Shown in pieces: positions 9,742-17,238 of a stretch of 43,611 nt of DNA; position 1 is the first letter of the stretch; each line of letters begins with the position of its first letter. The position numbers and the translations under genes are program-made. The stretch lies in assembly GCA_023251835.1 (NCBI GenBank), contig JAHEXZ010000046.1, positions 1 to 43,611 on the forward strand. Reading direction: 5' to 3'. The notes under the pieces are model-generated. The model searched no databases and was not told where the DNA came from. It saw only the letters and a list, made by a program, of their open reading frames with translations. The DNA comes from Bacteroidota bacterium (GTDB taxonomy: Bacteria; Bacteroidota; Bacteroidia; 2-12-FULL-35-15).

Positions 9742-9843
9742 CTATACTTCGACTGAAGAAGTTTGCAAAACTTACAAACTCATTCGCTCAGTATTACTGA
9801 GTCTAACTGCCTTTGCTATCGCAAACTCAGTAAGATTCAGTAT
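9742..9843. repeat. direct repeat copy A, downstream of the pectate-lyase-like gene
   Basis: Contains TATACTTCGACTGAA, then GTTTGCAAAAC, then a 60-nt segment (9781-9840) that is identical to 11705-11764 except for one base. The last part can fold: a GACTCAG-type arm faces CTGAATC across CTGCCTTTGCTATCGCAAA. It lies directly after the 3' end of the gene at 9861-11621. Confidence 0.85.
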
Positions 9844-11640: not shown

Positions 11641-11766
11641 TTATACTTCGGCTGAATGAGGCTTCGATGAGCCCAGCCGAACTGTTTGCAAAAACCAGCA
11701 AACACATTCGCTCAGTATTACTGAATCTAACTGCCTTTGCTATCGCAAACTCAGTAAGATTCAGTT
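11641..11766. repeat. direct repeat copy B, upstream of the pectate-lyase-like gene
   Basis: Starts TTATACTTCGGCTGAATGAG and ends in the segment 11705-11764, which matches 9781-9840 at 59 of 60 bases in the same orientation. The right end overlaps the pepT stop codon (11765-11767). Relative to copy A it has about 20 extra bases near its left end. Confidence 0.85.
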
Positions 11767-13009
11767 ATTTCCCCTGTTCTTCCCAAATGATGCAAAGGTT
11801 TACAATTGTTTCAACAGCTTTTTGCATATCCTGTATTGAAACCCATTCATGTTTAGAGTGGAAAGCATGTTCTCCCGCAAAAATATTCGGACAAGGCATC
11901 CCCATGTATGAAAAGCGTGAGCCGTCTGTTCCTCCTCTGATGCTTGATAATACAGGTTCGATACCCGCCCTTCGAATTGCTTCCAGGGCATTGCTCACTA
12001 TTTCAGGATTTTTATCCAGGACACGTTTCATATTACGGTACTGTTCTTTCACTGTAAAATCAAAATGCGAATGAGGATACTTTTTAATAATAGCATCAGC
12101 TATGTTTTTCAAAGAATTCTCTAGTATTTTTAGTTCCTCATCCTCAAATGAGCGTATAATAAACTGTAACGTTGTTTCTTCAATACTTCCTGAAATGCTT
12201 ACAGGATGTATAAATCCTTCTTTTTTTTCTGTATTTTCCGGGCTCATTTTGTCTTTTGGAAGTGCAGCTATAATTTCACCTGCAATTTTAATAGCACTTT
12301 CCATCTTATTTTTTGCAAAGCCCGGATGTGTGCTTACCCCATGAATAGTAATTGTTACGCCATCTGCCGAAAATGTTTCATTCTCAATATGTCCGAGTTC
12401 TTCGCCATCAATGGTATATCCATAGGCAGCTCCCATTTTTTTTAAATCAGCTTTGTCGGCACCCCTGCCAATTTCTTCATCAGGGGTAAATAAAATTTTT
12501 ACAGCACCGTGCTTTATTTCCGGATGTTTCATTAAATAATACGCAGCATCCATGATTTCAGCTATACCGGCTTTATTATCCGCACCCAACAGCGTGGTAC
12601 CGTCAGCAGTTATAATATCATTGCCTGTCTGTTTCAGTAAGGAAGGATGTTCGCTCACTTTAATAATTTGTGTTTTATCATTTGGTAATACAATATTTTT
12701 TCCATCATAATTCCTATGTATTTGCGGATTTACATTTTTCCCCGAACAATCCGGTGATGTATCCATATGCGAACAAAAACAAATCACCGGCACTTGTTTA
12801 GTGGTTGTGGATAGTATTGTTGCATACACATAACCATGTTCATCTATGTGTGCATCAGTAATACCCATTTCAAGCAGCTCTTCTACCAGCAAGCGTCCAA
12901 GGTCTTTTTGCTTTTCTGTAGATGGACAGGTAGAAGAAGTTGGATCACTTTGTGTGTCAATTTTCACATATTTCAAAAAGCGCTCTGTTACAGTGTGGTT
13001 TATATTCAT
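11765..13009 (-). CDS. pepT: peptidase T (tripeptide aminopeptidase, M20 family)
   Basis: Cytoplasmic zinc enzyme that removes N-terminal residues from tripeptides. At 414 aa it has the normal length. Metal and catalytic residues are visible: His81 and Asp83 (SHMDTSPDCSG), Asp144 (LGADNKAGIAEI), Glu178 and Glu179 (PDEEIGRGAD), Asp201 (YTIDGEELG), plus RGGTDGSRFS and the His of EHAFHSKHEW near the end. The stop codon lies at the edge of direct repeat copy B. It is divergent from the degraded gene at 13129. Confidence 0.95.
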   Translation of the reverse strand: MNINHTVTERFLKYVKIDTQSDPTSSTCPSTEKQKDLGRLLVEELLEMGITDAHIDEHGYVYATILSTTTKQVPVICFCSHMDTSPDCSGKNVNPQIHRNYDGKNIVLPNDKTQIIKVSEHPSLLKQTGNDIITADGTTLLGADNKAGIAEIMDAAYYLMKHPEIKHGAVKILFTPDEEIGRGADKADLKKMGAAYGYTIDGEELGHIENETFSADGVTITIHGVSTHPGFAKNKMESAIKIAGEIIAALPKDKMSPENTEKKEGFIHPVSISGSIEETTLQFIIRSFEDEELKILENSLKNIADAIIKKYPHSHFDFTVKEQYRNMKRVLDKNPEIVSNALEAIRRAGIEPVLSSIRGGTDGSRFSYMGMPCPNIFAGEHAFHSKHEWVSIQDMQKAVETIVNLCIIWEEQGK

Positions 13010-13100
13010 GGCTACTCTTGACCCTCCTCCTTGGGAATCCTTCGTACCTGAGGGGAGGCGTTTTTAGTTGTTTATATTAATTTATTTTTGCTAATTACAG

Positions 13101-13108
13101 TACTTTTG
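13101..13108 (+). promoter_or_regulatory. -7 promoter element before the DUF6495-like gene
   Basis: TACTTTTG fits TAnnTTTG exactly and lies 21 nt before the ATG at 13129. A -33 TTG at normal spacing is not clear, so only half of the consensus is present. Confidence 0.35.
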
Positions 13109-13128: not shown

Positions 13129-13585
13129 ATGAATGAGGAGAATCAAAAGCCTCCCTTCCCAAAAGGAAAGGGAAGTTGGGAGGGCACAAAGTACAAACGC
13201 CTTACCTCGGAGGAACTCCAATCATTAGAAAATGAATTCATTCATTTTTTGGCTCATAGATGTATTCAGCGATGTAGTATATGATAAAATACTTCGCAAA
13301 ATAAAATACCTCGAATTCAGGGATATTAAAACTTTAAATATTTTTTATTGTGCAACTGATAAAATCATTTTAGCCGGTATGCGTGTTAAAGAACAGTCTT
13401 CCTTAGATCTTACTACTTCAGATATTTTTACAAAATGGAAGGAGGAAGATTTATCTATGGTGAACCTTATTAAAACTGAAAAAAAATATAGTAAAGAAAG
13501 AGAAATGGAGGTTTTTGAGTTGCTACAGAGTGGCTGTTTAATTACTGATGATAAATTATTTAATGCATTGATGGATAGTTTTTAA
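13129..13585 (+). pseudogene. DUF6495-like gene, frameshifted and internally shortened
   Basis: Two frames together resemble one Bacteroidota protein family, DUF6495 as far as I recall it. Frame 1, from the ATG at 13129, reads KYKRLTSEELQSLENEFIHF (codons 21-40) and stops at 13284. Frame 2 continues with IDVFSDVVYDKILRKIKYLE and runs to the stop at 13585 (ALMDSF). The switch falls near 13252. Compared with my recollection of the family, about 20-25 residues between FLA and IDVFSD are missing, so this looks like a deletion rather than a single-base error. Codons 8-19 lie in a GC-rich palindrome (13150-13183) placed just before the conserved KYKRLT start. It is probably non-functional, unless the second frame has its own start at 13232. 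Confidence 0.6.
13150..13183. repeat. GC-rich palindrome inside the broken gene
   Basis: CCTCCCTTCCC faces GGGAAGTTGGGAGG across an A-rich loop, giving two stacked stems. It lies at the 5' end of the DUF6495-like gene, ahead of the conserved KYKRLT segment. It resembles the element at 3770-3824, so a dispersed palindrome may have landed here. Confidence 0.5.
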
Positions 13586-13723: not shown

Positions 13724-14497
13724 ATGAAAAAGGTAAAGCCGCTAATATTAGTTACAAATGATGATGGAATTACAGCCCCAGGCATTGCTGCATTGGTAGA
13801 AGTAATGAAAACATTAGGAGAGGTGGTGGTAGTAGCGCCTGATAAGGCACAATCAGGAATGGGACATGCAATTACTATTAATTCTACCCTGCGTATTAAT
13901 AAAGTAAAGATATATGGTGCGAAACAAGAATATAGTTGCACTGGCACTCCGGTTGACTGTATTAAATTTGCTGTAAATAAAATTATGCATCGTAAGCCCG
14001 ATTTGTGTGTTTCCGGCATCAATCATGGAACCAACATGTCTATTAATGTTATTTATTCCGGAACCATGTCAGCAGCGGTGGAAGGGGCCATAGAAGGCAT
14101 TCCTTCTATTGGATTTTCATTGACCGATCAAAGTATTGATGCAGATTTTACGGCTTCAAAAAAGATAGTTAGAACTATTGCTGCTAAGGTACTTCAGAAC
14201 GGACTTCCATCAGGAGTATGTTTGAATGTGAATATTCCTAAATTAAAGTATGAATTAATAAAAGGAATAAAAATATGCCGTCAGGCCAGAGCTACCTGGA
14301 TAGAAAAGTTTGATGAACGTTTTGACCCTGGCGGACAGGCTTATTATTGGTTGACAGGAAAATTTGAAAATTTTGATGCTAAAGAAAAAGATACAGATGT
14401 GTGGGCGCTTGATAATAATTATGTTTCTGTTGTCCCTACACAGTTTGATATGACAGCACATCTGGCGATTAAAGAAATTGCTAAATGGAAGCTTTAG
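13724..14497 (+). CDS. surE: 5'/3'-nucleotidase SurE
   Basis: Survival protein E, a metal-dependent nucleoside monophosphate phosphatase of the cytoplasm. The 257-aa product starts MKKVKPLILVTNDDGI, with metal ligands Asp13 and Asp14, Ser44 in APDKAQSG, Asn100 in SGINHGTN and the SGTMSAAVEG loop (about 112-121), all family hallmarks. A TTG at 13715 in the same frame would add three residues, but the ATG fits the family better. It begins a plus-strand run with lpxB and a SpoIID gene, an arrangement common in Bacteroidota. Confidence 0.94.
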   Translation: MKKVKPLILVTNDDGITAPGIAALVEVMKTLGEVVVVAPDKAQSGMGHAITINSTLRINKVKIYGAKQEYSCTGTPVDCIKFAVNKIMHRKPDLCVSGINHGTNMSINVIYSGTMSAAVEGAIEGIPSIGFSLTDQSIDADFTASKKIVRTIAAKVLQNGLPSGVCLNVNIPKLKYELIKGIKICRQARATWIEKFDERFDPGGQAYYWLTGKFENFDAKEKDTDVWALDNNYVSVVPTQFDMTAHLAIKEIAKWKL

Positions 14498-17184: not shown

Positions 17185-17238
17185 TATACTGAGTGAACGA
17201 GTTTGTACGTTTTGCAAACTCATTCAGCCGAAGTATAA
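17185..17238. repeat. third, inverted and shorter copy of the A/B repeat, with a hairpin
   Basis: The reverse complement reads TTATACTTCGGCTGAATGAG, then TTTGCAAAACGTACAAACTC and CACTCAGTAT, matching the left and middle of copies A and B. GAGTTTG and CAAACTC form a 7-bp stem that extends with mismatches through TGAA and TTCA. It lies between the convergent SpoIID and MFS genes and may also help end transcription. Confidence 0.7.

Follow-up and report, generated by a model that had tools for sequence, protein, structure and literature searches.

A DUF6495 gene of a Bacteroidota genome, probably a recent pseudogene, carries an in-frame palindromic repeat and a 68-nt deletion

During analysis of a 43,611-nucleotide stretch of Bacteroidota DNA (the window) we encountered a gene of the DUF6495 family that lies in two pieces and has a GC-rich palindrome directly ahead of its conserved start, which raises the question of how the gene was broken and whether the palindrome had any part in it. 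The window is contig C137 of a 4.1 Mb genome in 171 contigs that is 96.6% complete; the named assemblies nearest to it are metagenomic and carry the labels Bacteroidia or Bacteroidetes. The features of the locus are:

11765..13009, minus strand, peptidase gene, divergent neighbour conserved with DUF6495
13018..13062, strand not assigned, second GC-rich hairpin, between the peptidase gene start and the DUF6495 promoter (fold −19.7 kcal/mol)
13101..13108, plus strand, TACTTTTG, resembling what we take to be a −7 box, in the conserved upstream stretch of DUF6495
13129..13284, plus strand, N-terminal ORF of the broken DUF6495 gene, 51 aa (PF20105 positions 2-28, 28.7 bits)
13150..13183, plus strand, palindromic element CCTCCC...GGGAGG, in frame with the N-terminal part (family match; hairpin)
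13232..13585, plus strand, C-terminal ORF of the broken DUF6495 gene, 117 aa (PF20105 positions 46-152, 92.9 bits)
13251..13257, plus strand, deletion junction GGCTCAT, 68 nt net missing relative to 25/25 intact congeners
13724..14497, plus strand, surE-like gene, downstream of DUF6495

The order of the peptidase gene (presumably pepT), DUF6495 and the downstream gene (which we take to be surE) is common to the window, G002, G021 and G047, and since G002 has the same neighbours on both sides, the broken gene is an orthologue. A preliminary description had placed the conserved ends of the gene in different frames. Profile comparison bears this out: both pieces exceed the curated PF20105 cut-off of 25.2 bits, positions 29-45 are absent, the frame shifts between the pieces, and instead of the single continuous domain of intact congeners (positions 1-154) the window has two frames. 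The conserved part of the N-terminal ORF begins at about 13189, and the ATG at 13232, which opens the 117-codon frame, is a chance, out-of-frame codon upstream of the C-terminal piece. The same description had proposed a search for an intact paralogue; profile searching gave no second PF20105 match in this genome and DNA searching likewise revealed no intact copy.

Comparison with 26 congeneric DUF6495 genes, 25 of which hold the whole region from FL to FSD, located the break precisely. This region spans 28 nt in the window and 96 nt in all 25 congeners, a net loss of 68 nt, or 22 codon columns plus 2 nt, that alters the frame and agrees with the 20-25 missing residues estimated beforehand. 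Seven of the lost columns (Q, I, T, D, W, K and E) are invariant in 26/26 rows. In relatives, too, the run of T residues ahead of the break numbers six, and therefore no separate homopolymer slip is needed. A frameshift and a deletion had both been reported and both are present, but the FL-FSD lengths and the T run are most simply explained by one 68-nt event rather than two, and we infer a single deletion. Microhomology at the junction was considered and is not claimed, since it would depend on the ancestral bases. In a structure model of an intact relative built from five sequences (mean pLDDT 73, pTM 0.58, with low confidence in the deleted region), the missing part runs from the last portion of helix 14-30 across a short helix (38-41) into the first portion of helix 45-67. 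Foldseek with this model gave no match in the PDB at E <= 0.001 (best E 0.58) and hence no fold-based function is claimed for DUF6495; a search of the open literature library returned no paper containing the word.

The promoter-like sequence noted upstream of the gene is indeed retained, as TACTTTTG lies within a stretch that is conserved ahead of DUF6495 across the genus. A strict pattern of this type matches 20/25 congeners; by eye the five that it misses have the sequence as well, four of them with CTA in place of GTA and the fifth (G024) outside the position filter. A related promoter pattern occurs at two places in the genome, one of which is the DUF6495 gene. Congeners (e.g. L023-L047) have a conserved stretch like ACGAATTACNGTATTTTTGNGCAATATTCAAAA upstream of DUF6495 that exceeds the usual length of a promoter box. 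In the window the promoter is flanked by two palindromes, at 13018-13062 and 13150-13183, the first of which, judged by eye, resembles 34-nt copies of the PSPEFIPTKEGG type (L100, L104).

The second of these is the GC-rich palindrome that had been recorded just before the conserved start, and it proved to be well founded: shuffled sequence would give 0.02 matches where the window has one, and the predicted hairpin is of −15.7 kcal/mol. Together with its flanks it reads KPPFPKGKGSWEG in the DUF6495 frame. The N-terminal extension is variable and the 5' leaders are alike in the window, G021 and G047, where the distances from ATG to KYKRL are 60, 36 and 51 nt, respectively. All are multiples of three, so the element probably entered while the gene was still being read.

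This element belongs to a dispersed family. When the genome was searched for CCTCCC and GGGAGG separated by 8-32 bases, 26 copies were found, against one match to the reversed pattern used as a control. This gapped pattern was required because the palindrome, used as a query in BLAST-type DNA searching, brought up only weak second matches. In a 287 kb sample of the genome, window included, CCCTC..GAGGG was unsuitable as a control as it overlaps the family itself (7 versus 6), and outward-facing control patterns gave 0 and 1 matches. Across the genus, 31/36 genomes contain at least one match, with a maximum of 37, and controls mostly give 0-2 matches but reach 13; in some genomes the count is not above background.

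Inspection of all 26 copies placed 14 in frame in genes and 10 between genes, with two unclear (L105, L107). The genes concerned are backed by family searches, L070 being an open frame with an fn3 match alone. Four in-frame copies lie inside the conserved domain (ThiC, TsaD, an RluD-type pseudouridine synthase and PyrD), five in apparent signal peptides recognised by reading rather than by a predictor (L070, L073, L101 and two in L102), and five in N-terminal positions before the domain (a cytochrome c assembly protein, an RsmE-type methyltransferase, a TPP enzyme beta subunit, DUF2480 and DUF6495). The Pfam matches are computed, and RluD, RsmE, CcmC, KorB and SurA are the names that we presume to apply. 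At L065, L070, L101 and L109 two palindromes in inverted orientation, separated by 85-190 bp, bracket gene starts in the manner of REP dimers. The other genomes of the genus provided 30 pattern places in 29 loci, 19 of them in open frames of at least 110 codons; many of these 30 are plainly chance matches, and four were checked against Pfam, two of these also against the PDB.

Alignment with homologues shows several of the in-frame copies to be insertions. For example, the PyrD stretch is absent in three of four relatives, and in the fourth (G047) another stretch occupies this site; the DUF2480 stretch is absent in both relatives compared, and that of the cytochrome c assembly protein in two of three, the third having another N-terminus. 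The SurA-like and TsaD stretches are older, as G002 shares them in altered form. The ThiC site has one informative relative (G008), and variability among relatives prevents a call of insertion at the RluD-like, RsmE and KorB sites. Solved homologues extend the comparison: in the genome sample the product of a PaaZ-type gene shows 11 inserted residues relative to bifunctional PaaZ (6jql, E 1.3e-226), and in other genomes of the genus iPGM and Cas1 carry short inserts, including SSLPFGEG and SLPFGEGWGG. Length also varies at the PyrD insert site in E. coli-type PyrD, so the insert sites look like tolerant loops. Longer, different inserts are present in G047 at or near the same sites of PyrD (L147), TsaD (L158) and the RluD-like protein (L143), which suggests that these sites accept inserts repeatedly.

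The remaining pieces of DUF6495 show no decay: 23/24 invariant and 20/20 near-invariant columns are kept across both. In a two-ratio codon model the window branch has an omega of 0.041 against a background of 0.056 (2 delta lnL 0.37), and placing part of that branch at omega 1 costs 1.9 lnL at 5% and 3.8 at 10%, so that more than about 5% is disfavoured; these values come from a purpose-written script and a tree built by a fast method, whose branches are long and close to saturation. The window stands beside G015/G024 in the codon-test tree and beside G021 in a pepT tree (support 0.72). Given this lack of decay, either the break is young or artefactual, or the 117-codon remnant remains in use.

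We consider it quite probable that DUF6495 became a pseudogene in this genome recently, through a single 68-nt deletion that followed an in-frame palindrome insertion. In this reading the N-terminal extension of the ancestral gene, short and of variable length, took up a dispersed palindromic repeat in frame; one later deletion would have taken the end of predicted helix 1, the conserved segment that follows and the start of the next helix, putting the remainder out of frame. We infer that no working protein is made. The palindrome would not be the breaker of the gene but one of many copies that the genus has both between genes and in frame within them, the deletion lying about 70 nt beyond it and being most simply independent of it. 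That the insertion preceded the deletion is hinted at by the reading frame, which from the start codon onward is uninterrupted across the element, a faint indication because one third of random insertions would preserve the frame.

The undecayed pieces also fit two explanations that stand against a pseudogene. Were the deletion an assembly error or a minor variant in a mixture of strains, the gene would be intact in most cells, and the fragmented assembly of 171 contigs lends this some credit together with the kept columns; the junction is nevertheless clean, the T run is of normal length, and loss of 68 nt from unique sequence is not the usual type of assembly error, so that we regard an artefact as unlikely. 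Alternatively, the 117-codon frame from the ATG at 13232 could encode a shortened working protein kept by selection, as it is open, without stops, and the low omega of the window branch would suit it. Such a protein would, however, lack the most conserved segment of the family, with its seven invariant columns, and would begin at a chance out-of-frame ATG; moreover, no relative with a short form was found, the 26 congener matches beginning at profile position 1, 2 or 19 (the last in one congener cut by a contig end). We hold it to be very improbable.

A further alternative concerns the palindrome, which might be a mere regulatory hairpin or terminator in the leader, with translation beginning downstream of it. 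The 10 intergenic copies, most of which directly follow an ORF, would accord with such a role, but no in-frame ATG, GTG or TTG occurs from the element to KYKRL, and the ThiC, TsaD, RluD-like and PyrD copies are deep in conserved domains. A leader hairpin therefore appears improbable.

The family is widespread in Bacteroidota according to the preliminary description, which considered its loss unexpected, and this holds only in part, as profile searches found DUF6495 in 26/35 other genomes of the genus and not in the remaining nine. In seven of these nine the pepT gene is present with no DUF6495 in the fetched flanks. The seven form one clade in the pepT tree (support 1.000), and therefore one old loss accounts for all of them. 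No pepT was found in the other two (G019 and G020, 82% and 87% complete), which were left out of that tree. Within the fetched pepT/surE loci of the gene-less genomes, a search for DUF6495 remnants gave only a chance-like match of 25 residues (E 0.56). The break in the window is an event separate from the clade-wide loss. In two Flavobacteriales assemblies (L054 and L055, 3866-4342) DUF6495 overlaps the start of a gene that presumably encodes a D-Ala-D-Ala carboxypeptidase.

Palindromes read in frame within genes are known as RPEs in Rickettsia (PMC10969869, PMC3733652). RPEs are about 150 bp in length and occur in Alphaproteobacteria, according to a review (PMC10969869), and several species have GTAG or CGTC REPs within their reading frames, many at N-termini (PMC3733652). 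The latter paper names the Bacteroidetes once, for CGTC repeats, and our literature search gave only this paper as pertinent to such repeats in Bacteroidota, although papers outside the open literature may describe some. The present family is like the RPEs in being dispersed palindromic DNA (26 places versus one control) that is found in frame in unrelated genes (14/26) and predicted to be read as an extra peptide, with in-frame insertion relative to homologues in PyrD, DUF2480, the cytochrome c assembly protein, PaaZ, iPGM and Cas1. It is unlike them in its core of about 21-34 bp, its CCTCCC/GGGAGG base, its occurrence in a genus of Bacteroidota and its frequent location in apparent signal peptides. 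Intragenic REPs (PMC3733652) are similar in their small hairpins, occurring singly or as inverted pairs, often near the 3' ends of genes and some inside ORFs. GTAG and CGTC tags within 12 nt accompany only 2/25 and 1/25 copies (the window copy is outside these 25). Three Y1_Tnp matches (Y1 tyrosine transposases) were found in the genome, none with an element in the flanks fetched from this incomplete assembly, and no link to a RAYT transposase was found.

The element resembles the RPEs, or intragenic REPs, in the way it works, as a counterpart rather than a demonstrated member of either, and in size and taxon it differs from the RPEs. We think it somewhat probable that the genus has a family of untagged palindromes which enters genes in frame and is translated there, as an independent counterpart of the Rickettsia coding palindromes; the inserts would sit in conserved enzymes, at loops of variable length, and immediately ahead of signal-peptide cleavage sites. 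A broken DUF6495 is by itself ordinary and of little import, and the coding palindromes weigh more. They point to short repeat DNA as a source of added peptides in conserved enzymes of thiamine and pyrimidine metabolism and of tRNA modification, and this in a lineage distant from Rickettsia; the same sites with and without the insert among relatives make both the tolerance of the proteins and the mobiliser of the repeat testable.

Other repeats are present in the window. A 75-nt repeat has two direct copies (9767-9841 and 11691-11765; 93% alike) and a partial inverted third (17186-17237). Many degenerate period-8 repeats of the ATTTGGTG type, with the inverted partner AATTCTCC, occur between 23669 and 39723, often just past CCAT, which may be the start of minus-strand genes.
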